Shown here: in pieces, positions 15,779 through 36,639 of the stretch
How positions within the stretch are numbered: position 1 is the stretch's first letter
Layout of the letters: each line of letters opens with the position of its first letter
Origin: Tardiphaga sp.
GTDB lineage: Bacteria > Pseudomonadota > Alphaproteobacteria > Rhizobiales > Xanthobacteraceae
Length of the DNA stretch: 64,000 bases
Direction: 5' to 3'
Assembly (NCBI RefSeq): GCF_028290785.1
Contig: NZ_JAQGJD010000303.1
Location: forward strand, 1-64,000
Program-made: the position numbers and the translations under genes
Notes under the pieces: generated by a model
Told to the model about the DNA's origin: nothing
Seen by the model: only the letters and a program-made list of their open reading frames with translations
Database searches by the model: none

Positions 15779-16786
15779 CTAGCTAGCGGCGCGCAGCGGT
15801 TCTTGCTGCGGGGCGTCGAGGAAGCCGGTCAGGCGCTGGCGGATGATGCTCTCGGCATCGGTCATGATCCGGTCGATGAGCTCCTTCACCGTCGGCACGT
15901 CGTTGATCAGCCCGACCACCATGCCACAGCTCCAGGCGCCCGCATCCATGTCGCCGTTGATCATGACCTTGGGATAGACGCCCGCGACCTCGTCGAGAAT
16001 ATCGGCGATGACCAGCTTCGGTCCCTTCTCGCGCTCGATCTCCATCAACCGTTCGACGCCGGCGTTCTTCAGCACGCGTTCGGTGTTGCGAAGCGCCCGC
16101 ATCACGATGCGGGTGTCGAGTTCGCTGGCGGCGACCAGCGCTTTCTTGACGTTGTCGTGCACCGGCGCCTCCTTCGTCGCGATGAAGCGGGTGCCCATGT
16201 TGATGCCCGACGCTCCAAGCGCGAGCGCCGCGACCAGGCTGCGCGCGTCGGCCATGCCGCCGGAGGCGACGAACGGAATCTTGAGTTCCTCTGCCGCCCG
16301 CGGCAACAGGATCATGTTCGGCATGTCGTCTTCGCCCGGATGACCACCACATTCGAAGCCATCGACGCTGACGGCATCGCAACCGATCTGCTCGGCCTTC
16401 AGCGAGTGGCGGACCGAGGTGCACTTGTGGATCACCTTGATGCCTGCCGCCTTCAGCGCCGGCATGTATTGCTCGGGGCTGCGGCCGGCGGTTTCGACGA
16501 TCTTGATGCCGCCTTCGCGGATCGCGGCGATGTATTCCGGATAGGGCGGCGCGTCGAACGTCGGCAGGAAGGTGAGATTCACGCCAAACGGCTTGTCGGT
16601 CATGTCGTGGCAGCGCGCGACCTCCTTGGCCAGATTTTCCGGAGTGCGTTGCGTCAAACCCGTGATGATACCGAGACCGCCTGCATTGGAAACCGCGGCG
16701 GCGAGTTCGGCGAAGCCGACATAGTGCATGCCGCCCTGAACGATCGGATGTTCGATGCCGAACAAGTCCGTGATGGCTGTTCTCAT
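15779..16786 (-). CDS. Nitronate monooxygenase / 2-nitropropane dioxygenase family protein
   Basis: A 335-residue FMN-dependent TIM-barrel protein. Family signs are VQGGMHYVGFAELAAAVSNA at the N terminus, GGLGIITG, the flavin loop VASGGMADARSLVAALALGA, and GTRFIATKEAPV. GGAGAC precedes the ATG. True nitronate oxidation is shown for few family members; in CoA-ester clusters such genes often act as enoyl reductases or have no known role, so the substrate is open. It is the last gene of the seven-gene minus-strand operon that starts at 23456. Confidence 0.85.
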   Translation of the reverse strand: MRTAITDLFGIEHPIVQGGMHYVGFAELAAAVSNAGGLGIITGLTQRTPENLAKEVARCHDMTDKPFGVNLTFLPTFDAPPYPEYIAAIREGGIKIVETAGRSPEQYMPALKAAGIKVIHKCTSVRHSLKAEQIGCDAVSVDGFECGGHPGEDDMPNMILLPRAAEELKIPFVASGGMADARSLVAALALGASGINMGTRFIATKEAPVHDNVKKALVAASELDTRIVMRALRNTERVLKNAGVERLMEIEREKGPKLVIADILDEVAGVYPKVMINGDMDAGAWSCGMVVGLINDVPTVKELIDRIMTDAESIIRQRLTGFLDAPQQEPLRAAS

Positions 16787-16825
16787 GAGAGTCTCCAGGT
16801 TTCCGCGTACGGGTTTTTGTTGCGA

Positions 16826-18013
16826 TCAGTGGATGATTTCGAGCAGGCCAGCGGCCCCCATGCCGCCGCCCACGCACATGGTGACAACCGCATATTTCGC
16901 CTTGCGGCGACGGCCTTCGATCAGCGCGTGACCGGTGAGGCGCGCGCCGGTCATGCCATAAGGATGCCCGACCGCGATCGATCCACCGTTGACGTTGAGC
17001 TTTTCCGGATCGATGCCGAGTTTGTCGCGGCAATAGATCACCTGCACCGCGAACGCCTCGTTGAGTTCCCAGAGGTCGATGTCATCGACGGTCAAGCCAT
17101 GGCGCTTTAGCAGGCGTGGCACGGCATAGACCGGGCCGACGCCCATTTCGTCGGGCTCGCAGCCCGCGGAGACGAAGCCACGGAAGATGCCGAGTGGCTT
17201 CAGGTTCTTCTGGGCGGCCAGCGCATCGCTCATGATCACGGTGGCGCTGGCGCCGTCAGAGAGCTGGCTGGCATTGCCGCCGGTGATCGTGAAGCCGGGG
17301 CCCTTGGCCGGTTTCACGTTGGCGAGACCTTCCGCGGTGGTGTCCGGACGCGGGCCTTCGTCGGTGGAAAGCGTGACAGCATTGTAGGATACCACGCCGG
17401 TCTCTTTGTTCGTCACCGACATCGTCGTCGTGATCGGCGCCAGCTCGTCGTTGAAACGCCCGGCCTGCTGCGCCGCGGCGGTGCGGCGCTGGCTTTCCAG
17501 GCTGTATTCGTCCTGCCGCTCGCGCGAGATGTTGTAGCGCTTCGCGACATTCTCGGCTGTGTCCAGCATGGCGATGTAGGCGTCGCCCTTGATCGCCAAC
17601 AGTTCGGGATCGACGGCATGCCACTGGTTGAGATGTTCGTTCTGAACCAGACTGATCGATTCCCCGCCGCCACCAACCGCGATCTCGACGCCGTCATAGA
17701 GCACGGAACGCGCCGCCAGTGCGATGGCCTGTAGTCCGGACGCGCATTGGCGGTCGATCGTGGTGCCGGCGACGCTTACGGGCAGACCGGCGCGCAGCAG
17801 AGCCTTGCGGGCAATATTGCTGCCGGTCGTGCCTTGCTGCATCGCGCAGCCCATCACGACATCCTCGACCTCCGCGCCGGCGATATTGACGCGGCGGAGG
17901 GCCGCCGAGATGGCGTGGCCCATCAGCGTTGCCCCTTCAGTGTTGTTGAGCGCACCTTTGTAAGCTCTGCCGATCGGGGTGCGGGCGGTCGATACGATAA
18001 CGGCTTCGGTCAT
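16826..18013 (-). CDS. Acetyl-CoA acetyltransferase family thiolase
   Basis: A 395-residue thiolase that cleaves beta-ketoacyl-CoA with CoA. The acyl-accepting Cys lies in DRQCASGLQ at about residue 90, the catalytic His in [11 protein letters not shown], and the proton-shuttling Cys in [11 protein letters not shown] at about residue 380. I placed the start at the ATG at 18013, with GAGG upstream, rather than at a TTG four codons earlier. It lies between the acyl-CoA dehydrogenase pair and the nitronate monooxygenase-like gene, as expected for the last cleavage step of a beta-oxidation-like path. Confidence 0.92.
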
Positions 18014-18066
18014 TTTGTGCCTCAAATGTTGGTATGGCCCGGAACCAAGCCGAGAAAATCGCTGTT

Positions 18067-19197
18067 TTAGTTGGTGTGCGCGAAGCGCATTAGATGGAAC
18101 GCGGAATCGCCGAACTGGATATCGATCGCGCCGATCCGTTTGAAGTAGTGACCGACAACGAGTTCGTCGCTCATGCCCATGCCGCCATGCAGCTGGATAG
18201 CCTGCTCGCCGATAAAGCGAGCGGCATAGCCGACCTTGGTCTTGGCGCCGGACGCCAGCTTTGTGGTCCCCGAGTCCTTCGACGCAAGGGTCAGGGTAAG
18301 GTGCTGCGTCAGCGACACGGCTTCCTGATGGGCGATGAACATGTCAACCATCCGGTGCTGCAGGACCTGAAACGTGCCGAGCGCGACGCCAAACTGCTTG
18401 CGCGTCTTGGCGTAATCGAGGGTCGCGGAATTTAACTCCGACATCGCACCGACCGCTTCGGCACACAGCGCGCCGATAGCCCTGTCGCGGCAGGCCTCCA
18501 GAATCGCCGCGCCCTCGCCCTCGCCGCCAAGCAAGGCCGCCGCGGGTACCTGGACGTCCTTCATGGTGATTTCCGCGGCCCGCCGGCCGTCGATGGTCTT
18601 GAAACTCTGCAGATGCAGCCCGGCTGACTGTCGATCAACAATGAAGAGGCTGACGCCCTGGCGATCGCGGCGGTCGCCGGAGGTGCGCGCCGAAACGATC
18701 AGACGGTCAGCCCACGGCGCGCCGATGACGGCCGCCTTGGCGCCGGAAAGGATGTAATGATCGCCACTGCGCCGCGCGGTCGTAGAAACATTGTTCAGGT
18801 CGTAGCGGGCTCCCGGCTCCGCCCAGGCCAGCGCCCAGATCGACTCGCCCGCCGCAATGCCGGTGAGATGTTCGCGGCGCTGCGCATCGGTCCCCTCGGC
18901 CTCGATCAGCCCGCCGGCCAGCACCACTGTCTCGAAAAACGGCTCGACCACCAGGCGGCGCCCGAACTCCTGCATGACGATCATGGTCGCCAGCGCGCCC
19001 TCGCCGAATCCGCCGAACTCCTCCGCGAAAGGCGCGGCGAGCAGACCCATGTCCGCAAACTTCTTCCAATGCGTCCGGCTCCAGCCGTCCTCGCTCACGA
19101 CAATGCGGCGGCGCGCGTCGAAGTCGTACTCATCCTTGAGCAGACGTTGAACGCTGTTGCGCAGAAGCTCTTGTTCTTCGGTGAATTGGATGTCCAT
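18067..19197 (-). CDS. Acyl-CoA dehydrogenase, small (PimD-like) subunit
   Basis: A 376-residue FAD enzyme of the acyl-CoA dehydrogenase fold. The N terminus [20 protein letters not shown] and the segment [14 protein letters not shown] are typical. At the C terminus it reads [12 protein letters not shown], with Gly where classical members such as MCAD carry the catalytic Glu; no Glu is evident at the alternative helix position either (CRDRAIGAL). This fits the non-catalytic partner of a two-gene heteromer of the PimC/PimD type. GGAGAAA precedes the ATG and the partner gene lies 19 bases upstream. Confidence 0.88.
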
Positions 19198-19216
19198 GGC
19201 TTTCTCCAGTTCCGGA

Positions 19217-20398
19217 TCAGAGACCCAGCACCGCCTTAGCGATGATGTTGCGCTGGATCTCGTTCGAGCCGCCGTAGATGCTGAGCTTGCGCGAGTTGAG
19301 GTACTTTTCGGCCGCGGTGTGGCCGTAGTCCGGGCCGGGCATGAAGACGTTGCCCCCGGCAGGATGTTCGCGCAAAGCGAGGCCGTAGTTGCCCATGGCG
19401 CGATGCGTCAGGTCGGTGATGCGCTGGAAGATCTCGGTGCCCCTGATCTTGAACAGCGAAGCCGCCGGACCGGGATCAATGCCGCGCGACATCTGCGCAA
19501 CAACCCGCAACTCGGTGGCTTCAAGCGCAAGCACATCGAGTTCGATACGGGCGATATCGCGCACAAATTCGCCAAACGCCGGATCATCCTCTGGGACTTC
19601 CGCCGAAACAATGTCCTTGAGGCGCCGCAGATACCGCGTCGAACGTCCAATGCCAGCCATGCTGGTGCGCTCATTGCCGAGCAGGAACTTGGCATAGGTC
19701 CAGCCCTTGTTCTCGTCGCCGATCAGGTTCTCGACGGGGACCCGAACGTCTTCGAGGAACACATCGTTGACCTCGTGCGAACCGTCGATGGTGATGATGG
19801 GGCGGACCGTCACGCCCGGCGTCTTCATGTCAATCAGCAGAAAGGAAATGCCGGCTTGCGGCTTTGCTGACGGATCGGTCCGCACCAGGCAGAAGATCCA
19901 GTCGGCATGCTGCGCCAGTGTCGTCCACGTCTTGTGGCCGTTAACGATGTAGTGATCACCGTCGCGCACCGCCTTGGTGCGTACCGAAGCGAGATCGGAG
20001 CCGGAGCCCGGCTCGGAATAGCCCTGGCACCACCAGTCGTCGCCCGACAATATGCGCGGCAAAAATTTCTGCCTCTGCGCCTCGCTGCCATAAGTGTAGA
20101 TAACCGGTCCGACCATCGTCACGCTGAAGGCAAGCGGCGGCAACGTGCCGGCGCGAGAGGTCTCCTGCTCCCAGATGAAGCGCTGCGTCAGCGACCAGCC
20201 GGGACCGCCAAACTCCTTCGGCCACAGCGGCGCGATCCAGCCCTTCTTGTGCAGAATGCGGTGCCACAGCAGCGACTGTTCCTTGCTGAGGTCGGTCTCG
20301 GGATTGGGCACCCGCATTTCCGCCGGATAGTTCGCGGCAATGAAGGACCGAACCTCGTCGCGGAAGGCGGCGTCTTCCCTGGAAAGGTTCAGTTCCAT
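19217..20398 (-). CDS. Acyl-CoA dehydrogenase, large (PimC-like) subunit
   Basis: A 393-residue acyl-CoA dehydrogenase. FAD-contact segments are QGYSEPGSGSDLASV (residues 125-139) and the C-terminal IYGGSNEIQRNIIAKAVLGL. The usual catalytic Glu of MCAD is Gly in that motif, but GNERTSMAG holds Glu at about residue 243, the place used by isovaleryl- and long-chain dehydrogenases, so I take that as the base. The closest pattern I know is PimC of Rhodopseudomonas, the large subunit of pimeloyl-CoA dehydrogenase. It is followed by the small subunit gene, so the two likely form one enzyme. Confidence 0.88.
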   Translation of the reverse strand: MELNLSREDAAFRDEVRSFIAANYPAEMRVPNPETDLSKEQSLLWHRILHKKGWIAPLWPKEFGGPGWSLTQRFIWEQETSRAGTLPPLAFSVTMVGPVIYTYGSEAQRQKFLPRILSGDDWWCQGYSEPGSGSDLASVRTKAVRDGDHYIVNGHKTWTTLAQHADWIFCLVRTDPSAKPQAGISFLLIDMKTPGVTVRPIITIDGSHEVNDVFLEDVRVPVENLIGDENKGWTYAKFLLGNERTSMAGIGRSTRYLRRLKDIVSAEVPEDDPAFGEFVRDIARIELDVLALEATELRVVAQMSRGIDPGPAASLFKIRGTEIFQRITDLTHRAMGNYGLALREHPAGGNVFMPGPDYGHTAAEKYLNSRKLSIYGGSNEIQRNIIAKAVLGL

Positions 20399-20408
20399 GG
20401 CCGCGCCT

Positions 20409-21152
20409 CTACCACTTCTCGCCGAACGGCCGGATCTCGGCCTCGAACGTCCAGGCGTCGCGCGGCTGCTGGTAGAGCGCCCAGTAGGACTCCGCGACGG
20501 CGGCGGGACGCATCAGGCGGTTGGGATCGAGATTCTCCAGTGCCTGCGGCCCTTCCCGGCCGACGATCAGCTGCCGCACCCATTCGGTATCGACGCTGGA
20601 GTCGATCACGAGATGCGCGACGTGGATGTTTTGCGGTCCCAGTTCGCGGGCCATCGACTGCGCAACGGCACGCAGACCGAACTTCGCGCTGGCGAAGGCG
20701 GCAAAGCCCTTGCCGCCGCGCATGCTGGCGGTGGCGCCGGTGAAGAAGATGTTACCCTTGCCGCGCGCCAGCATGTGGCGCGCCGCCTCGCGCCCGGCGA
20801 GGAAGCCGGACAGGCAGGCCATTTCCCAGACTTTCCGGAACACCCGTTCGGTGGTCTCCACGATCGGAAAATTGACGTTGGCGCCGATATTGAACACGCA
20901 GACTTCCAGCGGCGCGTGCGCATCGGCGTCGGCCATGAACCTGATAATCTCTTCTTCCTTCCGCGCATCCAGCGCGCGGCCGAACACGGTGCCGCCGGCG
21001 GCTTCTATCTCCTTGATCAGCGGCTCCAGCTTCTCGCCCTGGCGGCGGCCGACGAACACGGTAAACCCCTCGGCGGCAAATTTCTTGGCGATCTCGCCAC
21101 CGATAAAATCTCCGGCGCCGACCACGGCGACCGTTGCATTGCGCTGTTCCAC
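20409..21152 (-). CDS. SDR family protein with Phe at the catalytic Tyr position
   Basis: A 247-residue Rossmann-fold protein of the short-chain dehydrogenase family. The cofactor motif is VVGAGDFIGGEIAKKFA rather than the usual TGxxxGIG. The catalytic stretch reads FAAFASAKFGLRAVAQSM, so the YxxxK signature is FxxxK: Lys is kept and Tyr is Phe, which I checked in the DNA. A GTG start at 21152 was chosen because AGGAG lies six bases upstream; a longer form from ATG at 21191 lacks one. A paralogue of equal length with the same change lies at 26242-26985. It may be a non-canonical reductase or a binding protein. Confidence 0.82.
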   Translation of the reverse strand: MEQRNATVAVVGAGDFIGGEIAKKFAAEGFTVFVGRRQGEKLEPLIKEIEAAGGTVFGRALDARKEEEIIRFMADADAHAPLEVCVFNIGANVNFPIVETTERVFRKVWEMACLSGFLAGREAARHMLARGKGNIFFTGATASMRGGKGFAAFASAKFGLRAVAQSMARELGPQNIHVAHLVIDSSVDTEWVRQLIVGREGPQALENLDPNRLMRPAAVAESYWALYQQPRDAWTFEAEIRPFGEKW

Positions 21153-21191
21153 TGAATTCTCCTGACGAAGGCTAAAATGATCGCGCGGCAT

Positions 21192-22748
21192 TCACTGGCC
21201 GCGCAGCGATTCCGCGAGTTTGTGCTTGAGGATCTTGCCAGTCGATGTCGCCGGCAGCGCCGGCAGTACGATGATCTCGGACGGCCGCTTGTATGAGGTT
21301 AGCTGCGGCGACACATGCGCCATCAGGTCCGACGCACTGGTGTCGGTGCCCTGCAGCAACTGCACGAAGGCCACGACCTCCTCATTGCCTTCCACGGAAC
21401 GCCCGACCACGGCGCACTGCACCACCGAGGGATGCGAACTCAGCACCGCCTCGATTTCCGCGGGGTAGACGTTGAAGCCGGAGCGGATGATCATTTCCTT
21501 GGTGCGACCAACGATGAACAGGCAGTCGCCCTCGAAGCGGGCGAGATCTCCTGTGTTGAACCATCCATCCGGGTCGATCGCCTTGGCGGTCAGGTCCGGA
21601 GCGCGGTAGTAGCCGCGCATCACGTTGCGACCGCGGACGTGCAGCTCGCCCACCTCGCCGGACTGCTTCGTCGCGCCATTGAGGCCGATGATCTTCGCCT
21701 CGATGCCCGGGAGCAGCGATCCCACCGCCTGATCGTCGCGCGGCGCATCGATGCGCACGCCCGACAATCCAGGCGAACATTCGGTAATGCCGTAGCCGTT
21801 CAGAAGCGGCAGGCCGAGTTCCTGCTGCACGCGCTCCTTCAGGTCGAGATCGAGCGGCGCGCCGGCCACCGCGATCAACCGCAGCGAGCCGGGATCGAGC
21901 CTGTCGAGGCCGGCAACGGCCTTGTATTCCAGCAGGCGCTGATACGTAGCGGGTACGCCGTTGAGGATGGTGATGCCTTCTTCCGAAATGGCTTTAGCGA
22001 GCGCCGCGGGATCGTATTTGCTGACCAGACGCACTGTCGCACCGGTCATCAACGTCATCACCAGCAAGGAGATTCCGACGATGTGGGAGATCGGCAGCAC
22101 GATGTACTGCTTGTCGGCAGGTGTCATGCGGCGGATGTCCGCCGTGGTCTTGGCGCTGAACAGCAGGTTTTCATGCGTCAGCATCACGCCCTTCGGCGTA
22201 CCGGTGGTGCCGGAAGTATAGATCAATACGGCGACCTGGTCGCGTGGGCTGTATTGCACCGGCTCCGGCGCGGTCTGCTCGTTGGAAGCTGTTGCCGCGA
22301 TATCCCGCAGCGGACCGATCGTGATCGTCTGCGCCGCATAGCGCGACGCGTGGGCTTCCGCCTCCTTCGATACGCTGACCGTCAGCAGCACGCGACGCGC
22401 GCCGCTGTGATCACGAATCTGGTCGATTTCGCGCGCCGACAGCCGCGGATTGACCACGATCGCCCAGGCGTCGATGCGGCTGGCGGCCAGCAGCAAACCG
22501 GCCAGCGCAATGCTGTTCTCGCTGACCAGCATGAGCCGATCGCCCGGCCGGATGCCGAGCGCCGTCAGCCCGTCTGCGATCTCGCCGACCGAGCGGTGCA
22601 GTTGCGCATAGGTCCAGGCATAGCCGTCCTCGACCAGGGCGACGCGGTCGGGCGTCTCCGCGGCGTGGCGGTCGATCACGAAATGAAGGCGCGGCGGCAA
22701 GCTGCCCAGCACCTCTATGGAGTTGTCCGCTTCTGCCGTCGTCAACAT
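21192..22748 (-). CDS. AMP-forming acyl-CoA ligase (class I adenylate-forming)
   Basis: A 518-residue enzyme that should activate a carboxylic acid to its CoA ester with ATP. The phosphate-binding loop YTSGTTGTPKG lies at about residues 177-187, YGITECSPGLSG forms the adenine-binding motif, GWFNTGDLARF carries the conserved Asp, and the hinge and C-terminal domain follow (IRSGFNVYPAEIEAVL, then the Lys in STGKILKHKL). GGGAGAA precedes the ATG. In the operon it follows the isomerase gene and precedes the SDR and dehydrogenases, so it is the likely entry step. Substrate unknown. Confidence 0.9.
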   Translation of the reverse strand: MLTTAEADNSIEVLGSLPPRLHFVIDRHAAETPDRVALVEDGYAWTYAQLHRSVGEIADGLTALGIRPGDRLMLVSENSIALAGLLLAASRIDAWAIVVNPRLSAREIDQIRDHSGARRVLLTVSVSKEAEAHASRYAAQTITIGPLRDIAATASNEQTAPEPVQYSPRDQVAVLIYTSGTTGTPKGVMLTHENLLFSAKTTADIRRMTPADKQYIVLPISHIVGISLLVMTLMTGATVRLVSKYDPAALAKAISEEGITILNGVPATYQRLLEYKAVAGLDRLDPGSLRLIAVAGAPLDLDLKERVQQELGLPLLNGYGITECSPGLSGVRIDAPRDDQAVGSLLPGIEAKIIGLNGATKQSGEVGELHVRGRNVMRGYYRAPDLTAKAIDPDGWFNTGDLARFEGDCLFIVGRTKEMIIRSGFNVYPAEIEAVLSSHPSVVQCAVVGRSVEGNEEVVAFVQLLQGTDTSASDLMAHVSPQLTSYKRPSEIIVLPALPATSTGKILKHKLAESLRGQ

Positions 22749-22817
22749 CGCTATTCTCCCGAAGAACGAGCCGCTTGAACGCGACTTCGATAGTATGCGG
22801 CGCGCCGAATAATGGGC

Positions 22818-23456
22818 TCAGACCCGCTTCGCCTGCCGCACCGAGGACAGGTCGACGATCAGTTCCTCGACATCGCGCAAACTGTCCTTGCCAAAGAACA
22901 TCTCGTCTCCCACGAAGAACGTCGGCGACCCGAACGAGCCGCGCTCGACCGCCGCGTTGGTGTCCTTGATCAGCTTCTGCTTGACGTCGTCCCGCTGCGC
23001 GCGGACGATCAGCCTGTCGATGTTGATGCCCGATGCCTGGAAGGCGGCGCGGAATACCTCGAGGTCGTCCATCTTCTTGGGCTCTTCCCACATGTGATGG
23101 TAGGCCGCGCGGAAGTAGGGCTCGAACACGCCCTCGAACTGCGCCGCCACCGCGCCGCGCATCAGCATCAGCGTGTTGACGGGGAAAAACGGATTGTAGT
23201 TGAACTTGGTGACGCCGTGCTTTCGCAGGAAGCGCTCGGTCTCCAGCCGTTGGTATTCCGGCTTGTTCTTGATGCCGCGCAGCGATTCCGCCGGGGACAT
23301 GTTGCCGGTGGCCTTGTAGATGCCGCCGAGCAGGACCGGAATGTATTCGAACGTGGCGCCAGTGCGCTTCTCGATGCCGGGAAGCGCGATCTCCGCCAGA
23401 TAGGCGTTGGGGCTTCCGAAATCGAAATGGAATTCGACCTTCACTGCAGCGGTCAC
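22818..23456 (-). CDS. 2-Hydroxychromene-2-carboxylate isomerase family / DsbA-fold protein
   Basis: A 212-residue thioredoxin-like protein of the HCCA isomerase group. The active-site pattern FDFGSPNAYL places Ser at about residue 15, the residue these glutathione-dependent isomerases use instead of the DsbA Cys pair; FNYNPFFPVNTLMLMRG and FGSPTFFVGDEMFFGKD are family segments. The start is a GTG at 23456 with GGAG upstream. It is the first gene of the catabolic operon and lies downstream of the AGTTC-N7-GAACT promoter. A GSH-linked isomerisation is inferred, not shown. Confidence 0.85.
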   Translation of the reverse strand: MTAAVKVEFHFDFGSPNAYLAEIALPGIEKRTGATFEYIPVLLGGIYKATGNMSPAESLRGIKNKPEYQRLETERFLRKHGVTKFNYNPFFPVNTLMLMRGAVAAQFEGVFEPYFRAAYHHMWEEPKKMDDLEVFRAAFQASGINIDRLIVRAQRDDVKQKLIKDTNAAVERGSFGSPTFFVGDEMFFGKDSLRDVEELIVDLSSVRQAKRV

Positions 23457-23519
23457 GGCGCTTCTCCTCGTCCTGCGTATTGGTCCAGCAGTCGCCCGCC
23501 GACGCCTGCCATTGCAGCG

Positions 23520-23548
23520 ACGATAAAGTTCTATTTTAGAACTGTCAA
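23520..23548 (-). promoter_or_regulatory. Promoter with embedded AGTTC-N7-GAACT operator, copy 1
   Basis: On the minus strand TTGACA (23548-23543) and TATCGT (23525-23520) are 17 bases apart and fit a sigma-70-type promoter. The palindrome AGTTCTATTTTAGAACT at 23527-23543 fills the spacer. It lies 63-79 bases before the start of the catabolic operon and about 135 bases from the HxlR gene. Two further copies occur at 25561 and 36617. Confidence 0.65.
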
Positions 23549-23677
23549 TGCGGAAACGACTCCGCTCAGGTGAAATGGAACTGCTAAGGTCACAAGGTTA
23601 TTGTCCTCGCGTCAGTGCCTTATTAGAATGGCAAGCGGCGGCGCCCGACGGACGCCGCAAACGGATGGAATGACACG

Positions 23678-24187
23678 ATGAAATGGGATGCCCTCGAGGA
23701 AGAGCCCTGCTCGCTGGCCCGCACGGTGGCCGTGATCGGCGACCGCTGGAGCCTGATGATCCTGCGCGAGTGTTTCCTGCGCAAGCGGCGGTTCGAGGCA
23801 TTTCAGTCCTCGCTCGGCATCACGCGGCATCTGCTCGCGGAACGGCTCAAGAAGCTCGTGCGTTTCGGGGTGCTGCGCCGCATCCCCTATATGGAATCGC
23901 CGAAGCGCTACGAATATATCCTGACCCAGAAGGGCCTCGACCTATATCCAATAATCATGTCGATCGTGCATTGGGGCAACGTGCACATGGTGGATTCCCG
24001 CGGCAAGCCGCTGCTCCATGAGCACAAGAGCTGCGGCAAGATGTTCGATCCGCTGATGATCTGCTCGGAATGCGGCGAGCCGCTGAACGCCAAGCAGGTG
24101 CACACGCATCCAGGCCCCGGCGCGCGTCAGGAGACCTTGCCGGCGAAGGCGCCTGCCAAGCCTAAAGCCAGCCGCACCGCGGTCTGA
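23678..24187 (+). CDS. HxlR family transcriptional regulator with C-terminal Cys/His tail
   Basis: A 169-residue regulator. The HxlR winged helix covers about residues 10-100: CSLARTVAVIGDRWSLMILR at the start with the conserved Cys and GDRW, then RRFEAFQSSLGI and the wing RRIPYMESPKRYEYILTQKG. A C-terminal tail beyond the core has Cys at about 119, 129 and 132 (SCGK, ICSECG) plus His, as in a small metal-binding knuckle that many HxlR proteins lack. The ribosome binding site is weak. It is divergent from the catabolic operon with the operator copy 1 in the gap, so it is the best candidate to bind all three copies. Confidence 0.88.
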   Translation: MKWDALEEEPCSLARTVAVIGDRWSLMILRECFLRKRRFEAFQSSLGITRHLLAERLKKLVRFGVLRRIPYMESPKRYEYILTQKGLDLYPIIMSIVHWGNVHMVDSRGKPLLHEHKSCGKMFDPLMICSECGEPLNAKQVHTHPGPGARQETLPAKAPAKPKASRTAV

Positions 24188-24264
24188 TTCGCGGCTTGCG
24201 GCGGGCCGAACCGGAGAGCCAGCGATGCCGTCCTTTTCTTGTTGCTGGACGACCATGCCGCGCC

Positions 24265-25470
24265 TCACTCGGAGTTCGCGTCGAGGATGTCGCCGAACGG
24301 CTCCCAGTTCGTGCCGCTCCAGCGCTGCAACTGCAGTTGGGTCCAGATCATGTTGCTCGAATCGGTTGTATTGATCTTGATGCCGGTGGCTGCAACCGGA
24401 AGGACCAGGTCCTTGAGCGATTTCGACTGCGCGACGATGTTCTTTCGCGATAGGTCATCGCCGCACTGCTTCAGGATCTGCTCAAGGATCATGCCGTGCA
24501 TGTAGCCCGTCAGGTAACTGGTATTCTGGAAGTCCGCGCCGGGCAGGTATTTTTCGAAAAATGCCCGATATGCGTTGATGCCGGCGTCGTTCTCCCATTT
24601 TGAATCGGTCGGATCCTTGTTGATGGTACCGACCACCACGCCGACGGACTTGTCGAGGCCGGCGGGCCGCAACGTCCCGCCGATTGAGCCGGATGGAAAG
24701 TTGATGACCACGATCGGCTTCCAGCCGATTTCCGCGGCCTTCCGGATCGCCTGCGCAGCGCATTTCGGCGTCCCAGCAATGAACAGGGCTTCGGCACCGG
24801 AGCTCTTCAGGCTGACCACCTGTGAATCCACGGTCGGCTCGGTAACCTCGTAGGCGGCCGTGACCACCCGTTTGTCGAAGTCGGCCTTCATAAACGACCG
24901 GAACGCGTTGACGTAGTCCTTACCGAGGTCGTCGTTCTGGTAGAGGATCGCGTACTTGGCCGTCGGCAGCGCCCGGCTGAGGAATTTCGCGTAGATCTTG
25001 CCCTCGGTGTCGTAGCTGACGAGACCCGTGGTGGTCAGCGGGTAGTCCTTCACGTCGGTGAATTTGCTGGAGCCGCTGACGATGGCGATGCTCGGCACCC
25101 CCTTCGCCTTCAGGTATTTGGCGACGGCCGTATTCCCCGGCGTGCCGAGCTGGCCGAAGATGAACGAGACCTCGTCGCTTTCCACCAGCCTGCGCGCCTG
25201 CTCGACCGCCTTGGGCGGGCTGTAGGCGTCGTCCATGGCGATGTAGTCGATCTTGCGGCCGTTGATGCCGCCGCGGTCGTTGATCGACTGGATATAGGCC
25301 ACGATGCCGCGGCCGGTGAGGCCGATCGAGGAGGCCGGCCCGCTGAACGGAAAAATGCCGCCTATCTTGATCTCGGTGGCGGTCACTCCGGGGGCTTCAG
25401 CCGCCATGGCGGGGCCCCCGAGCAGGCAGGAAAGCGAAATCGCAGACACCAACCGGGATGCTGGGCGCAT
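24265..25470 (-). CDS. Branched-chain amino acid-type ABC transporter substrate-binding protein (Peripla_BP_6)
   Basis: A 401-residue periplasmic binding protein with a signal peptide ending near GGPAMAAEA. The mature N terminus TEIKIGGIFPFSGPASSIG and the FGQLGTPGNTA segment are family signs. GGGAGGATA precedes the ATG at 25470. It closely parallels the protein at 35326-36525 and shares its promoter-operator. The LivFGMH-type permeases and ATPases encoded at 28269-31582 are the likely partners. In this family ligands are often aromatic or other organic acids rather than amino acids. Confidence 0.92.
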   Translation of the reverse strand: MRPASRLVSAISLSCLLGGPAMAAEAPGVTATEIKIGGIFPFSGPASSIGLTGRGIVAYIQSINDRGGINGRKIDYIAMDDAYSPPKAVEQARRLVESDEVSFIFGQLGTPGNTAVAKYLKAKGVPSIAIVSGSSKFTDVKDYPLTTTGLVSYDTEGKIYAKFLSRALPTAKYAILYQNDDLGKDYVNAFRSFMKADFDKRVVTAAYEVTEPTVDSQVVSLKSSGAEALFIAGTPKCAAQAIRKAAEIGWKPIVVINFPSGSIGGTLRPAGLDKSVGVVVGTINKDPTDSKWENDAGINAYRAFFEKYLPGADFQNTSYLTGYMHGMILEQILKQCGDDLSRKNIVAQSKSLKDLVLPVAATGIKINTTDSSNMIWTQLQLQRWSGTNWEPFGDILDANSE

Positions 25471-25554
25471 GGGTATCCTCCCTGAGGCGACTGCCGGAGG
25501 CAGTCGCGGACAATCCTTGATTGTCGTTATCGCGGCATTTTTGCCGTCGATGAT

Positions 25555-25583
25555 TTATTCAGTTCTTTTTTAGAACTTGTCAA
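25555..25583 (-). promoter_or_regulatory. Promoter with embedded AGTTC-N7-GAACT operator, copy 2
   Basis: On the minus strand TTGACA (25583-25578) is followed by the palindrome AGTTCTAAAAAAGAACT as exact 17-base spacer, then GAATAA or, with 18 bases, AATAAA as a -10. It lies about 90-100 bases before the binding-protein start at 25470. The -35 box overlaps the stop codon of the upstream GST gene. Confidence 0.62.
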
Positions 25584-26242
25584 CAGGTCGGCAATACCAC
25601 CACCGGCTTATTGGCCAGCGCCGCGCGCTGGTAGGCCGGCCGCGCCTTGGTGCGTTCGAGATAGGGCATCGCGCTGTCGCAGATCCCGACGCCGTAATCG
25701 ATCGCCCAGGTCAGGCAGGTCGTCAGGATAATGTCGGCGGTGGTGAACTGGTCACCCATCAGGAAGGTCCGCCCGTCGGACAGCGCGACGTCCACATGCT
25801 TCAACTGATCGCGAAAATATTCGCCGGCCTTGGTCACGACCACAGGCGCCTCGCCATAGATATGGGCGAGGCCGTTATTGGTGCCGTGACGGCGCATCAC
25901 GTACAGGCTGGTGGAGTCCAGTTCCGCGACCACGAAGAAGCACCATTCCAGCCACCTGGCCTGCAGCGACTTCTCGCTGGGAATCAGGACATGATCCGGC
26001 GTCGAATAGGTCTGCGAGAGATAGGCGACAATCGCCGCGCTCTCGCCGATCCGGAAATCCCCATCGACCAGCAGCGGGACCTTCTGCCGCGCGTTCAGCG
26101 CGGTGTATTCGGGCGTCTTGGTCTCCCCCGAGCGGGGGAGAATGGGCCGGCATTCGTATGGCAGATCCAGCTCATGAAGCGCCCAGTGTGCGCGGATCGT
26201 GCGCGTGGTGCCGACACCCCAGAGAACAAGTTGCTCGTCCAT
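25580..26242 (-). CDS. Glutathione S-transferase family protein
   Basis: A 220-residue protein with an N-terminal thioredoxin-like domain (LVLWGVGTTRTIRAHWALHE; cis-Pro in QKVPLLVDGDFRIGESAAIV) and a helical C-terminal domain. I placed the start at the ATG at 26242, eight bases after GGAG and overlapping the TGA of the upstream SDR gene (TGATG); an ATG two codons earlier is possible. It ends the second transport/CoA-transferase gene set. A GSH-dependent step fits with the HCCA isomerase-like gene in the first operon. Substrate unknown. Confidence 0.88.
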   Translation of the reverse strand: MDEQLVLWGVGTTRTIRAHWALHELDLPYECRPILPRSGETKTPEYTALNARQKVPLLVDGDFRIGESAAIVAYLSQTYSTPDHVLIPSEKSLQARWLEWCFFVVAELDSTSLYVMRRHGTNNGLAHIYGEAPVVVTKAGEYFRDQLKHVDVALSDGRTFLMGDQFTTADIILTTCLTWAIDYGVGICDSAMPYLERTKARPAYQRAALANKPVVVLPTC

Positions 26243-26985
26243 CACCATGTCTCCACTGAGGGCCGCAGATCGAGTTCGTGGGTCCAGCCATCGCGGCTCT
26301 GATGGTGCGCGAACCAGTAGGCCTCGGCGATCGACGAGGTCTTGGTCAGGCTATCCGGCGGAATCTCGCTGGCATCGATGCCCTTGGCAGCCTTCATCCG
26401 CAGATGAATCGCCTCGCTGTCCACGCCGGCATCGATCAGCAGGTGGACGACGTGGATATTTCGCGGACCGAGTTCGCGGGCCATGGACTGCGCCACGGCG
26501 CGCAGTGCGAATTTTGCGGAGGAGAACGCGGTGAACCCGGTGCGGCCCTTGACGCTGGCGGTGGCGCCGGTGAACAGCATGGTGCCACCGCCGCGCTTCA
26601 GCATGTGGCTTGCCGCTTCGCGGCCCACGAGGAAGCCGGCGTAGCAAGCCAGTTCCCAGGCCTTGAAGAACAGCTTTTCGCTGGTCTCCAGCAGCGGCTT
26701 GCTGACATTCGATCCGGCGTTGAACAGGCAGACCTCGATCGGCCCGACGTCCTTCTCGACTTCGGCGAACAGTGCCCTCACGCTGTCCTCCTGGCGCGCA
26801 TCGGTAGAGAACGCCCGCGCAACGCCGCCGGCGGCGTTGATCTCATCGACCAGCGCTTGCGATTTTGCGGCGTCGCGGCGCGCGATGCAGACGGCGAAGC
26901 CGCCTTGCGCAAAACGTCGCGCCACGGCGGCGCCGATCGCGTCTCCGGCGCCGACGAGCAGGGCTACCTTGGTTGTTTCGGTCAT
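26242..26985 (-). CDS. SDR family protein with Phe at the catalytic Tyr position, paralogue of 20409-21152
   Basis: A 247-residue Rossmann-fold protein, equal in length to its paralogue. The cofactor motif is LVGAGDAIGAAVARRFA, and the catalytic stretch reads TAFSSAKFALRAVAQSMA, again Phe for the usual Tyr with Lys kept. GGAAAGGA precedes the ATG at 26985. It lies between a CoA-transferase and a GST in the second gene set, while its paralogue lies in the first, so each operon carries one copy. Reductase activity is uncertain without the Tyr. Confidence 0.82.
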   Translation of the reverse strand: MTETTKVALLVGAGDAIGAAVARRFAQGGFAVCIARRDAAKSQALVDEINAAGGVARAFSTDARQEDSVRALFAEVEKDVGPIEVCLFNAGSNVSKPLLETSEKLFFKAWELACYAGFLVGREAASHMLKRGGGTMLFTGATASVKGRTGFTAFSSAKFALRAVAQSMARELGPRNIHVVHLLIDAGVDSEAIHLRMKAAKGIDASEIPPDSLTKTSSIAEAYWFAHHQSRDGWTHELDLRPSVETW

Positions 26986-27014: not shown

Positions 27015-28214
27015 TCAAACGGCGACGCGGACGGCGCGATTGCCGATCATGCTATCGATGTCACTGGCGCTATAACCGAGCTCGGCGAGCACATCCCTGG
27101 AGTGCTGGCCGACCCGCGGCGCGGGTCCTCCGATGGAGGCCTCGTTCACCTCGAAACGCGCGGCAGGCTTCGGCTGCCGCACGCGCCCGACCGTCGGCTG
27201 ATCGAATTCGGCAATGATGCCGCGTGCGACCACCTGCTCGTTGTGGATGATCTCGCTGCGCCGCAGGATCGGTGCACAGGGCACATCGGCCGCGTCGAGC
27301 CGCTCCAGCCACTCGGCTGTGGTGTGCTGCACGATGTACTCGGCCATCTTGTGAATGCGCGCGGTGGCGTTCACCGAACGCGCCGCGGGCGTCGCAAAGC
27401 GCGTGTCCTTGGCGAGTTCGGGATCGCCGGACGCGCGACAGAAACCCTGCCATTCGGAATCCGAGATGGTGCCGGCGGTGATGTAGCCGTCGCTGGTCTT
27501 GAACACGAGATCGGGCCGATCATTCGGATCGGCCGCCGCGGCTTCGGCGCCGACGACCGTGTACTGCATCATGCCCTCGGGCCACAGATAGGAGATCATG
27601 ACGTCGAGCATGGCCACCTGGATGTGATCGCCCTGCCCGGTTTTCTCGCGCGCATAGAGCGCGGCGGTGACCGCCTGCGCGGTGTAGACCGAGGTGGTCT
27701 TGTCGCAGACGATGGTGCGGATCATCTGCGGGCGGTTGGTGACCGGCTGCGACTGGATGTCGGCGAAGCCCGACAGTCCCTGGATGATGGGATCGTAGAC
27801 GCGCTTCTTGACGTAAGGCCCGGTATCGCCGACGCCGCTGATCGAAACGTAGATCAGGCGCGGATGGCGCTTTCGCAGCTCCTCGGCGCCGAGCCCAAGC
27901 CGCTCCATGGTGCCGGGCCGGAAATTCTGCACCAGCACATCGGACTGCGCGACCAGCTTGGCCAGCACCTCGCGGCCGGCGTCGCTCTTCACGTCGATCG
28001 ACAGCGAGCGCTTGCCGCGGTTCGCGGAAATGAACATCGCGGAGAATTCGCCAGCCTTGTCGATCGCGGCGCGGCTGCGCCGGGCGCTGTCTCCGCCGAT
28101 CGGCTCGATCTTGATCACGTCGGCGCCCTGGTCGGCCAGGAACATGGTTGCGAACGGACCCGACACCACGGCCGTGAGGTCGAGCACGCGGACACCTGTG
28201 AGTGGACCTGACAT
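27015..28214 (-). CDS. Family III CoA-transferase (CaiB/BaiF)
   Basis: A 399-residue enzyme moving CoA between carboxylic acids. Family signs: VRVLDLTAVVSGPFATMFLA at the N terminus, the segment DVKSDAGREVLAKLVAQSDV, ISGVGDTGPYVKKRVYDPII, and GQGDHIQVAMLDVMISYLW, which carries the conserved Asp that forms the aspartyl-CoA thioester. AAGGATG precedes the ATG. It lies between the liv-type ATPase genes and the SDR and offers a second route to the CoA ester beside the ligase in the first operon. Confidence 0.92.
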   Translation of the reverse strand: MSGPLTGVRVLDLTAVVSGPFATMFLADQGADVIKIEPIGGDSARRSRAAIDKAGEFSAMFISANRGKRSLSIDVKSDAGREVLAKLVAQSDVLVQNFRPGTMERLGLGAEELRKRHPRLIYVSISGVGDTGPYVKKRVYDPIIQGLSGFADIQSQPVTNRPQMIRTIVCDKTTSVYTAQAVTAALYAREKTGQGDHIQVAMLDVMISYLWPEGMMQYTVVGAEAAAADPNDRPDLVFKTSDGYITAGTISDSEWQGFCRASGDPELAKDTRFATPAARSVNATARIHKMAEYIVQHTTAEWLERLDAADVPCAPILRRSEIIHNEQVVARGIIAEFDQPTVGRVRQPKPAARFEVNEASIGGPAPRVGQHSRDVLAELGYSASDIDSMIGNRAVRVAV

Positions 28215-31627: not shown

Positions 31628-32824
31628 TCAAAAACTCTTGGTGCAGCCGGGCAGGTCTTCCGCACCGGAAAACTCGTCGAGCTGCCGGCGGTCCGGCTTG
31701 CCGTCGGCGCCCTTGACGATCTCGACGAGGTATTCCTTCTCGAGCTGCGCGCTGTTCTGGGCGTTGAAGCGGATCTTCCCCCGCGGCGCGTCGAAGTTCA
31801 CGGTGCGCAGCGCCGTCATGAAGCCCGCGGTGTCGTCTGGCATCTTGCCGCCAAGCTTTTCCAGCGTCAGCATGATCGTCTTGCCGTTGTCGTAGCCGAG
31901 GGCGGCGTTGACGTCGGGGTCCTCGTTGAACATCTGGCGATAGGCCGCGACGAATTTCCTGTTGGCCTCGTTCTGCGCGCCGGGCAGATAGGACGCGACG
32001 AACTTTCCGCCGATCACCAGGTCGCCGAGCGCCGGCCAGCCGACCTCGTCGAACAGCCATTGGTCCCCGATCAGCGGCACCTTCTCGCGCATGCCGAAAT
32101 CGGCGTGCTGCTTGACGACCTGCACGGCCTCGCTGCCGGAATAGAAGGCGTAGATGAACTCGGCGCCCGACGCCCCCGCCTGCCCGAGCGCCGCGCTCCA
32201 GTCGCGCGTCTTCTGGAACGGCGTCCAGATCTGCTGCACGACCTGACCGCCGCCGTCCTCGAAGCCGCGCTTGAACGCATCCATGAAGGAGTGGCCAGCG
32301 GAATAGTCCGCCGTCATGGTGACGACCTTCTTTACGCCCTTCTGCGCCCAGTATTTGCCGGCGCCGTACTGGAACGCGTTGGCGCTGAACGAGGTTCTCG
32401 CCACGTAGGGACTGCAAAGCTTTCCGGTGATCTCGTCCGCATGGGCGTTGGTCATCACCACCGGCTTCTTCGCGCGGTCGGCCAGTTCGGAAAGCGCGAT
32501 CGCCACGTTAGAGCTGACGCCCCCGCCGATCACGTCGACCTTGTCGAACTGCACCAGCTTGTTGAATTTCTGCACGGCGACGTTCGGCGTCAGTTCGTCA
32601 TCGGCCCGCACCACTTCGACGGGCCGGCCGGCGGTCTTGTTGCCGAACTCCGCGAGCGCGACGCGAAAACCGCGGTCGATGTTTTCTACCGGGGCGGCCC
32701 ACACGCCCTTGTAGGGAAGGATGAGCCCGATCTTGAGCGGCGTCACGTCCTGGGCGCGGACCGGCGCAAGCGCCGCGGCGGATATACAGGCGATGAGAAC
32801 GACGCGGATTGCCGCTTTTGTCAT
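31628..32824 (-). CDS. Branched-chain amino acid-type substrate-binding protein, tandem copy 1
   Basis: A 398-residue periplasmic binding protein with signal peptide (MTKAAIRVVLIACISAAALA, cleavage near PVRAQ). The mature start LKIGLILPYKGVWAAPVENI and the segments ADEITGKLCSPYVARTSFSA and FQKTRDWSAALGQAGASGAE are shared with the next gene upstream. Both end in DLPGCTKSF. The two look like a tandem duplication, about two-thirds identical by eye. The gene directly precedes livH, so it is the main partner candidate of the importer. Ligand unknown. Confidence 0.92.
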   Translation of the reverse strand: MTKAAIRVVLIACISAAALAPVRAQDVTPLKIGLILPYKGVWAAPVENIDRGFRVALAEFGNKTAGRPVEVVRADDELTPNVAVQKFNKLVQFDKVDVIGGGVSSNVAIALSELADRAKKPVVMTNAHADEITGKLCSPYVARTSFSANAFQYGAGKYWAQKGVKKVVTMTADYSAGHSFMDAFKRGFEDGGGQVVQQIWTPFQKTRDWSAALGQAGASGAEFIYAFYSGSEAVQVVKQHADFGMREKVPLIGDQWLFDEVGWPALGDLVIGGKFVASYLPGAQNEANRKFVAAYRQMFNEDPDVNAALGYDNGKTIMLTLEKLGGKMPDDTAGFMTALRTVNFDAPRGKIRFNAQNSAQLEKEYLVEIVKGADGKPDRRQLDEFSGAEDLPGCTKSF

Positions 32825-33021: not shown

Positions 33022-34224
33022 TCAGAACGATTTGGTGCAGCCGGGCAGATCGTCGGCTCCGGCGAATTCGTCGATGAATTTCCGCTTCAGCTTGCCGTCG
33101 GCTCCCCTGACGATCTCGACCAGATAGACCTTTTCGAGCAGCGCGCTGCTCTGCGCATTGAAGCGGATCTTGCCGCGCGGCGCGTCGAAGTTCAGTCCGC
33201 GCATGGTCGAAATGAACCGGCTGCGGTCTTCCGGCATTTTTCCGCCGAGCTTGTCGAATGTCAGCAGGATGGCCTTGCCGTTGTCGTAGCCGAGCGCGGC
33301 GCTGACATCGGGCTCTTCCTTGAACATTTCCCGGTACGCCGCCACGAACTTGCGGTTCGCATCGCTGTCGATGTCGGGATAGTGCACCGTGATATGCTTG
33401 GCGCCCACGGCCAGATCTCCCAGCGCCGGCCACAGCGCCTCGTCATAGACCCATTGGTCGCCGATCAGCGGCATCTTTTCTCGCAAACCGAAGTCGGCGT
33501 GCTGCTTGACCACCTGGACCGCTTCGCTGCCGCCATAGAACGCGTAGATGATCTGGGCGCCCGAATTGCTCGCCTGGCTGAGCGCGGCGCCCCAGTCCCG
33601 GGTCTTCTGGAACGACGTCCAGATTTCCTGGACCACCTTGCCGCCGCCCTCCTCGAAGCCGCGCCGGAACGCACCGAGAAAGGCGCGTCCCGCCGAATAG
33701 TCAGGACCCATCGTGACTGCCGTCTTGATGCCCTTGCTCGCCCAGTATTTACCCGAATTGTACTGGAAGCCGTTCGCACTGAACGAGGTTCGCGCGACAT
33801 AAGGGCTGCAGAATTTCCCGGTGATTTCGTCGGCGAAGGCATTGGCGAAAATCATCGGCACCTTGCCGCGGTCCGCCAATTCGGAAACCGCGATGGCCAC
33901 GCTGGAGCTCACCACCCCGGCGACCAGGTCGACCTTGTCGAGCTGCACGAACTTGTTGAACTTCTGCACGCCGACGCTCGGCGTCAGCTCGTCGTCCGCG
34001 CGAATGATCTCGACGGGCCGGCCGGCGATCTTGCCGCCATACTCAGCCAGCGCGACCTGAAAGCCGCGGTCTATGCTGTCGGACAATGGCGCGTAGACGC
34101 CCTTGTACGGCAGCAGAAGGCCGATCTTGACGGGAGACACGTCGTTCGCCGCTGCCGGCCGAACGACTGCGATAAAGGTGCCGGCACACAGAACCAGGCA
34201 TCGCCAGACTGAAAGCCGCGCCAT
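33022..34224 (-). CDS. Branched-chain amino acid-type substrate-binding protein, tandem copy 2
   Basis: A 400-residue periplasmic binding protein, paralogue of the gene downstream. The start at 34224 was chosen because a GGGGGG tract lies six bases before it and because the protein then begins with a signal peptide (MARLSVWRCLVLCAGTFIAV, cleavage near AAAND). An ATG two codons earlier abuts the G tract. The C terminus DLPGCTKSF is identical to its twin. Differences cluster around the middle, which suggests different ligands for one permease. It lies downstream of the AraC gene. Confidence 0.9.
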   Translation of the reverse strand: MARLSVWRCLVLCAGTFIAVVRPAAANDVSPVKIGLLLPYKGVYAPLSDSIDRGFQVALAEYGGKIAGRPVEIIRADDELTPSVGVQKFNKFVQLDKVDLVAGVVSSSVAIAVSELADRGKVPMIFANAFADEITGKFCSPYVARTSFSANGFQYNSGKYWASKGIKTAVTMGPDYSAGRAFLGAFRRGFEEGGGKVVQEIWTSFQKTRDWGAALSQASNSGAQIIYAFYGGSEAVQVVKQHADFGLREKMPLIGDQWVYDEALWPALGDLAVGAKHITVHYPDIDSDANRKFVAAYREMFKEEPDVSAALGYDNGKAILLTFDKLGGKMPEDRSRFISTMRGLNFDAPRGKIRFNAQSSALLEKVYLVEIVRGADGKLKRKFIDEFAGADDLPGCTKSF

Positions 34225-34404
34225 ATGCATCCCCCCGATGACCGAACGATTTTTCGCTCGAAGCGTGCTCGGCCGTTGAAATGACCTGCACGCATTGTCC
34301 GGAGCCGACCGTAGCGCCGGCATGGCCGACGGCGCTTGCAATAAAGCGCCGCCGTCTACGCAATCCCGACGCAAACCGCGTTGCGCGCTCCATCCGCTCG
34401 CCGC

Positions 34405-36525: not shown

Positions 36526-36610
36526 GTTCCTCTCCCGCGCAGCGGATCTTTGTCCGCTCTTATCGACAGTCGTCCGCGCTGAGGCGATCGAACGCTGTCC
36601 ATAGCCTAAA

Positions 36611-36639
36611 GCTATCAGTTCTTTTTTCGAACTAGTCAA
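36611..36639 (-). promoter_or_regulatory. Promoter with embedded AGTTC-N7-GAACT operator, copy 3
   Basis: On the minus strand TTGACT (36639-36634) is followed by AGTTCGAAAAAAGAACT as exact 17-base spacer and GATAGC as a weak -10. The outer five bases of each arm match copies 1 and 2; one inner base differs (CGAACT for AGAACT in the plus-strand reading). It lies about 86-114 bases before the binding-protein start at 36525. Confidence 0.58.

Follow-up and report, generated by a model that had tools for sequence, protein, structure and literature searches.

A widespread branch of short-chain dehydrogenases in which phenylalanine replaces the catalytic tyrosine and a glutathione-type enzyme is the usual neighbour

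The stretch analysed here (the window) comprises 64,000 nucleotides of contig NZ_JAQGJD010000303.1 from Tardiphaga sp. and encodes two proteins, SDR-A and SDR-B, of the short-chain dehydrogenases/reductases (SDRs). The motif YxxxK identifies this enzyme family, which ranks among the largest. Considered together, the conservation and gene-order data place both proteins in an old, widespread SDR branch in which the loss of most of the standard catalytic residues, tyrosine (Tyr) included, is fixed and which usually adjoins a glutathione enzyme; this combination points to a possible unusual activity. The two genes and the codons at issue are:

Positions 20409-21152, minus strand: SDR-A, a Tyr-less SDR (FASAK) of 247 amino acids (Pfam adh_short, alignment)
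Positions 20694-20696, minus strand: TTC codon for phenylalanine (Phe) replacing the catalytic Tyr of SDR-A (read in the DNA)
Positions 26242-26985, minus strand: SDR-B, a Tyr-less SDR (FSSAK) of 247 amino acids (Pfam adh_short, alignment)
Positions 26524-26526, minus strand: TTC codon for Phe replacing the catalytic Tyr of SDR-B (read in the DNA)

An earlier, sequence-only reading of this DNA had claimed that both 247-residue SDRs carry FxxxK, and that GAGDxIG replaces the cofactor motif TGxxxGIG. Both statements hold: the motifs are FASAK and FSSAK, both Phe codons are TTC, and GAGDxIG is present in each protein, with the classical TGxxxGxG pattern absent. That observation is right and was understated; the interpretation attached to it is partly right. 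It did not register the loss of Ser and Asn, the Asp at the Pro position, the neighbouring glutathione enzymes or the absence of Lys from some members. The Tyr of YxxxK, the catalytic Ser and the catalytic Asn, by which classical SDRs are defined, are all missing from SDR-A and SDR-B. SDR-A starts at GTG and SDR-B at ATG, each with a ribosome-binding-like sequence on its 5' side (AGGAG just before SDR-A; GGAAAGGA before SDR-B). Because the two proteins are 49% identical and their alignment needs indels, their equal length is coincidental. Tyr occurs in the whole chains only at 223 and 227 in SDR-A and at 115 and 223 in SDR-B; Tyr223 would be the sole shared candidate for a relocated catalytic Tyr.

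Family members and canonical SDRs were aligned to one profile, A2, whose columns supply the residue numbers used here. Loci L001, L002, L091 and L155 were excluded from the counts, and L039, which has an internal stop, was excluded from A2. In the canonical control (54 YxxxK rows), Asn113 is found in 44, Ser141 in 50 and Pro185 in 32 (20 gaps), and 30 further canonical SDRs agree with the tetrad columns. Core family rows, defined by E<1e-85, number 137 after deduplication. In these, Ser is lost to Ala141 and Tyr to Phe154 in 137/137; Asn113 is retained in 1/137; Lys158 and His178 are present in 137/137 and Asp185, which occupies the Pro position of the canonical PG motif, in 136/137. The Phe154 codon is TTC in 74 rows and TTT in 63, a single-base change away from Tyr.

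One of the peptide patterns used to find relatives contains the Phe, and A2 was built from those relatives. The profile searches of the class (Alphaproteobacteria) and of the phylum do not demand Phe; for each genome they score a few of the top first-look candidates. Since the class and phylum loci are the best-scoring matches and not an even draw, 20 lower-scoring core places were added. In the phylum sample (30 core rows from 27 loci), Ala, Phe and Lys are present in 30/30 and Asp185 in 29 (the remaining row has a gap); in the lower-scoring sample (n=20), Ala, Phe and Asp are present in 20/20, and at the Lys position 16 rows read Lys and 4 read Met. Rows identical to a named row make up 3/29 of the class, 5/18 of the region, 0/30 of the phylum and 0/20 of the lower-scoring rows. 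By these alignments, the fixed features of the core are Phe and Ala; Lys occurs in most rows but not in every one.

Phe and Ala are invariant in all core samples and are therefore a family trait, not decay. Median ratios of nonsynonymous to synonymous substitution rates (dN/dS) are 0.10 for SDR-B (21 orthologues) and 0.15 for SDR-A (28 orthologues), rough values with dS near saturation. Together with the invariant Phe and Ala, these low ratios bear out the earlier claim that the change was selected. Recent duplication or decay is excluded by the 49% identity, the separate clades and the low dN/dS.

A more distant set, group 2 (37 rows), has Ala141 in 35 rows and Phe (27), Leu (5) or His (5) at position 154; His178, Asp185, Trp234 and Arg241 are present in 37/37. 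The family also includes an HxxxM clade in which Tyr and Lys are both gone and IHVAHxxIDG and a C-terminal W/R motif are retained. Two of its five members adjoin genes for a glutathione S-transferase (GST) and a CaiB-type coenzyme A (CoA) transferase.

HxxxM clade members: L120:4607-5455, L144:4136-4933, L145:4561-5328, L150:4562-5353, L154:4111-4944

The residues expected at the NADP(H) site are kept, with Gly12, Gly14, Gly18, Arg37, Asp62 and Asn89 in 149/149 core rows (not deduplicated), and both window proteins would be expected to bind the cofactor. Pfam PF00106 (adh_short) matches SDR-A and SDR-B with 107.7 and 116.3 bits (cut-off 26.6). Among the best 25 of 185 (SDR-A) and of 216 (SDR-B) matches, no NCBIfam SDR family reaches its cut-off, the best scores being 102 and 109 bits against a cut-off of 215. 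An AlphaFold2 (AF2) model is confident (predicted local distance difference test score, pLDDT, 93.6), and fold comparison returns SDR chains, with PDB entry 3h7a first (Z 33.7, next 30.5). This Rhodopseudomonas palustris short-chain dehydrogenase is also the only clear kin by sequence among the PDB chains listed (phmmer E 2.7e-70; 239.8 bits versus 94.8 for the next chain). FASAK is visible in its alignment with the SDR, placing it in the same subfamily; its title states no function. The CDD subgroup SDR_c10 (cd05373) is likewise described as having Phe for the active-site Tyr with Lys kept, and it is not known to have an assigned function. As a sequence group, the subfamily is thus not new. 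No paper naming 3H7A with 'short-chain dehydrogenase', and none naming SDR_c10, was found in the open-licence PMC literature.

The Tardiphaga genome holds four members: SDR-A, SDR-B, a FASAK copy on contig C408 and an FAMGK copy on contig C164. A FASAK copy of this genome other than SDR-A, L003:245-985, precedes a 2-dehydropantoate-2-reductase-like gene (named by eye). Scanning named genomes with the peptide patterns returned at least 582 relatives among at least 590 pattern matches. At E<=1e-40, a member is present in 123/289 sampled genomes of the class and in 75/398 of the phylum. Plasmid-borne members occur in Cupriavidus, Tistrella, Trichlorobacter, Klebsiella, a cyanobacterium and a haloarchaeon; all read F-x3-K, and those of Klebsiella, the cyanobacterium and the haloarchaeon keep Asn at 113. 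Database records name family members simply 'SDR family oxidoreductase'. No Tyr-bearing intermediate was found at E<1e-45, in searches that scored a few top first-look candidates in each genome and could miss some.

The second line of evidence is gene neighbourhood. Around SDR-A and SDR-B the window encodes:

Positions 22818-23456, minus strand: DsbA-fold protein, 2-hydroxychromene-2-carboxylate-isomerase-like, leading the SDR-A operon (Pfam DSBA; PDB 2imd, E 7.6e-16)
Positions 21192-22748, minus strand: AMP-binding acyl-CoA ligase, flanked by the DsbA-like gene and SDR-A (profile match)
Positions 15779-20398, minus strand: two acyl-CoA dehydrogenases, a thiolase and a nitronate-monooxygenase/FabK-like protein, 3' of SDR-A
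Positions 25580-26248, minus strand: GST, directly downstream of SDR-B (Pfam GST_N/GST_C; GST chains in PDB)
Positions 27015-28214, minus strand: CaiB-type CoA-transferase, upstream of SDR-B (Pfam CoA_transf_3)
Positions 23678-24187, plus strand: HxlR-type regulator, divergent from the DsbA-like gene (profile match)

The window DsbA-like protein has three PDB sequence matches, two named as this isomerase and one as a mitochondrial GST. For the window GST, the top NCBIfam match is maleylacetoacetate isomerase, below its cut-off.

Neighbouring genes were called, clustered and profile-searched, and the profiles built from them were applied unchanged to the controls; the species are related, and the 1.5-kb and 4-kb counts for named loci, regions and the 42 controls are not deduplicated. 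Core members with a DsbA-like gene or a GST no more than 1.5 kb away number 27/29 among the best class matches, 25/30 among the best phylum matches and 16/20 among the lower-scoring class members. For the named loci the count is 72/99 within 1.5 kb and 89/99 within 4 kb; for the extra regions, 11/18 and 16/18. The controls differ: such a gene lies within 1.5 kb of 2/42 canonical SDRs from related genomes (40 regions, same order), 15 of which have a CoA ligase within 4 kb, and of 0/30 canonical SDRs across the class (best PF00106 matches, 1.5-kb flanks).

The Ser of the SP motif is kept in 60/60 aligned DsbA-like proteins (of 89 clustered), and the GST alignment (n=43) retains Pro58 in 43, Glu69 in 42 and Ser70 in 43; we take these residues to be glutathione-binding. 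In database annotation the neighbour appears as '2-hydroxychromene-2-carboxylate isomerase' (Trichlorobacter, Bradyrhizobium) or 'DsbA family protein' (Tistrella), and on Trichlorobacter pGLOV01 the SDR and isomerase are paired amid transposases. Loci L099, L102, L104 and L097 each carry a core member followed on the same strand by a DsbA-like gene and then by a group-2 member, the layout that a heteromer would need. HxlR lies within 4 kb of 49/99 named core members. The idea, raised from the sequence alone, that CoA-transferases are a constant partner is rejected on the CaiB counts: 46/99 named core members within 4 kb, and 1/29, 7/30 and 0/20 within 1.5 kb in the class, phylum and lower-scoring samples.

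The two window proteins differ in their partners. A quick tree (174 rows) puts SDR-B in a 33-row set (support 98) in which 33/33 have a same-strand GST within 1.5 kb; SDR-A falls in a 67-row set (support 96) with a DsbA-like gene in 29, a GST in 6 and none in 32. Within 4 kb, the nearest partner of SDR-B-like proteins is a same-strand GST in 30/30; for 48 SDR-A-like proteins it is a same-strand DsbA-like gene in 27, a GST on the other strand in 15 and neither in 6. Because clades and neighbour types differ, SDR-A and SDR-B are, on this tree, old paralogues in separate clades with different glutathione-type partners.

We favour, with a probability of about one in three, a reading in which these are NADP(H)-binding SDRs that perform hydride chemistry on an activated C=C bond without a proton relay and receive their substrate from a glutathione-dependent isomerase or transferase. 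Its observations are sequence, conservation and gene linkage; cofactor binding, catalysis, substrate and step order are proposed from them. SDR-A and SDR-B keep the fold and the expected NADP(H)-site residues; Asn, Ser and Tyr, which make up the proton relay, are gone. The reaction would involve: passage of a hydride, in either direction, between the cofactor and an activated C=C, as in conjugate 'ene' reduction of an enone, an enoyl-thioester or a quinone-methide-like intermediate; and protonation of the product by solvent or another residue. The kept Lys may help, as in eugenol synthase. The glutathione-dependent thioredoxin-fold partner would generate the unsaturated substrate, or isomerise it, by way of a glutathione adduct; this partner would be the 2-hydroxychromene-2-carboxylate-isomerase-like protein for the SDR-A operon and for many lineages, and for SDR-B the GST. 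The CoA ligase or CaiB, the acyl-CoA dehydrogenases and the thiolase could then pass the product into beta-oxidation.

C=C rather than carbonyl chemistry is favoured because a site lacking the Tyr and Ser hydroxyls suits carbonyl protonation poorly; a conjugate reductase with a glutathione partner is favoured because of Tyr-less precedents and because the partners resemble glutathione-dependent isomerases. According to the excerpted account, eugenol synthase lacks the Tyr and requires the Lys (PMC1991597). Eugenol synthase and the PIP reductases, as described there, share with SDR-A and SDR-B the kept SDR Lys and the missing catalytic Tyr, and these plant enzymes are active. As plant proteins of another SDR branch, they are likened by residue pattern; this Lys-only reductase pattern would fit SDR-A and SDR-B but not the 4/20 lower-scoring core relatives without Lys. 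A further precedent is isopiperitenone reductase, described in the excerpt of PMC4988501 as reducing C=C, not C=O, with Glu at the Tyr position; it differs in having Glu instead of Phe, in using Ser and Lys in its mechanism and in belonging to another subfamily.

Several points weigh against this proposal. The last tetrad residue changes from Lys to Met in 4/20 lower-scoring core members, and group 2 has Lys in 30, Met in 5 and Cys in 2 of its 37 rows at position 158. Because Met or Cys replaces Lys in some members, a Lys-dependent mechanism cannot, on these alignments, hold family-wide. The four Met exchanges therefore weaken the hydride-transfer proposal and strengthen its silent-subunit rival. 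Each of these FxxxM core members (L231, L246, L247, L248) adjoins a same-strand DsbA-like gene, and such retention of the neighbour favours either a silent subunit or a new site around Asp185/His178. Group 2 is weakly linked to DsbA-like genes or GSTs in the region set (6/32), with 4/4 and 4/4 in loci picked for a core member, and some of the canonical SDRs that lie in family loci share this kind of neighbour (3/8, 1/1 and 0/3). Finally, unsaturation of the substrate is signalled solely by the partners' resemblance to isomerases.

Equally likely is that the proteins are catalytically silent SDRs, serving as a structural, regulatory or substrate-binding subunit, either as a homomer or as partner of an operon enzyme. 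Precedents would be BbsC, a silent SDR subunit of the BbsCD heterotetramer, and human HSDL1, both SDR chains reported to lack activity or active-site residues. No paper on the mechanism of BbsCD or HSDL1 was found in the open-licence PMC literature, in which the single paper mentioning BbsCD concerns regulation. Consistent with silence, the core lacks Ser, Tyr and, bar 1/137, Asn, some members also lack Lys, and other positions are fixed, including the four invariant in group 2; several genomes have two family members at one locus; and the BbsCD chain is among the fold matches (Z 29.6), though tied with many ordinary SDRs. However, the expected cofactor-site residues are fixed in the core, Phe and Ala are exactly kept where drift would be allowed, and many modules have a single family member with no other SDR in the stretch seen. 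The three options first offered, catalysis without Tyr, a heteromer partner and a binding protein, all stand as candidates from the sequence data.

A broader formulation is possible but somewhat doubtful. Here, the widespread family, which spans Pseudomonadota and extends to plasmids of a cyanobacterium and a haloarchaeon, would do productive NADP(H) chemistry without Asn, Ser and Tyr, and in some members without Lys, probably via new residues such as Asp185/His178. Paired with one or the other of the two thioredoxin-fold glutathione enzymes, it would make up a compact module for catabolism or detoxification that is sometimes mobile. Among the open-licence PMC papers listed, we found no description of such a module of Tyr-less SDR and glutathione enzyme as a unit, of an isomerase, SDR and HxlR module, or of a function for the Tyr-less SDR family.

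It is unlikely that these proteins are IsoH-like dehydrogenases, which would oxidise a glutathionyl alcohol made by the GST, using a replacement base such as Asp185 or His178, before CaiB forms the CoA-thioester. This model draws on the near-invariance of Asp185 and His178 in the core and on gene order: CaiB, SDR-B and GST (27015-28214, 26242-26985 and 25580-26248, all minus) follow the order CoA-transferase, SDR, GST of isoGHI in isoprene degradation, a glutathione-linked catabolic pathway by the excerpted accounts (PMC10057887, PMC4676930), in which IsoH oxidises the glutathione adduct HGMB with NAD+ (PMC10057887). IsoH, known here from its published description in part, is nevertheless an SDR of another type: it has a GxxxGxA motif (PMC10057887) and is 42% identical to C-factor (PMC4676930), whereas SDR-A and SDR-B carry GAGDxIG. 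On these published features it was rejected as a characterised family member. Moreover, alcohol oxidation would need a base where Phe stands. No iso genes were found in bases 1-50,000 of the 174,494 of Gordonia plasmid p174. Least probable is an ordinary oxidoreductase with its catalytic Tyr moved to Tyr223: this residue is present in 149/149 core rows, but it lies in model helix 216-228, presumably remote from the active site, the one remaining Tyr of SDR-A is 227, and Ser and Asn are gone too.

The regulatory setting concerns two sites in the window:

Positions 23527-23543: perfect palindrome AGTTCTATTTTAGAACT, candidate operator, between the DsbA-like and HxlR genes
Positions 25561-25577: copy with one mismatch, upstream of the LivK gene at 24265-25470

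With up to three mismatches, the palindrome occurs 3 times in the window (0.47 expected; 1/100 shuffles reached 3). The third copy, 36617-36633, falls within another LivK gene if that gene is read at its greatest length, but ahead of its probable later start. Its form AGTTCT-n5-AGAACT has 22 occurrences in 18/229 loci, against ~0.04 expected from base composition; two of the 18 repeat other stretches (L001 is the window, L124 the contig of L024). In L014, L015, L017, L025 and L027 it stands ~150 to 190 bases before SDR-B. The shared regulon proposed earlier, with one SDR in each operon, thus stands in part: the palindrome is found 5' of the SDR-A operon, of LivK and, in some relatives, of SDR-B, but is absent before CaiB-SDR-B in the window. 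In outline, a regulon that includes the SDR-A operon is plausible, and HxlR may bind the palindrome. Four LivK-type substrate-binding proteins (24265-25470, 31628-32824, 33022-34374 and 35326-36660; two named only by cluster or by eye) surround one LivH/LivM/LivF set, as if importing several related acids.

The excerpt of PMC4988501 gives only four further cases of a substituted catalytic Tyr among >500 aligned SDRs. If active, this family would carry out hydride transfer with no conventional proton relay and may be a source of ene-reductases; if inactive, it would be a large pseudoenzyme family. The glutathione-enzyme partner offers a concrete pointer to the substrate class of Tyr-less SDRs.

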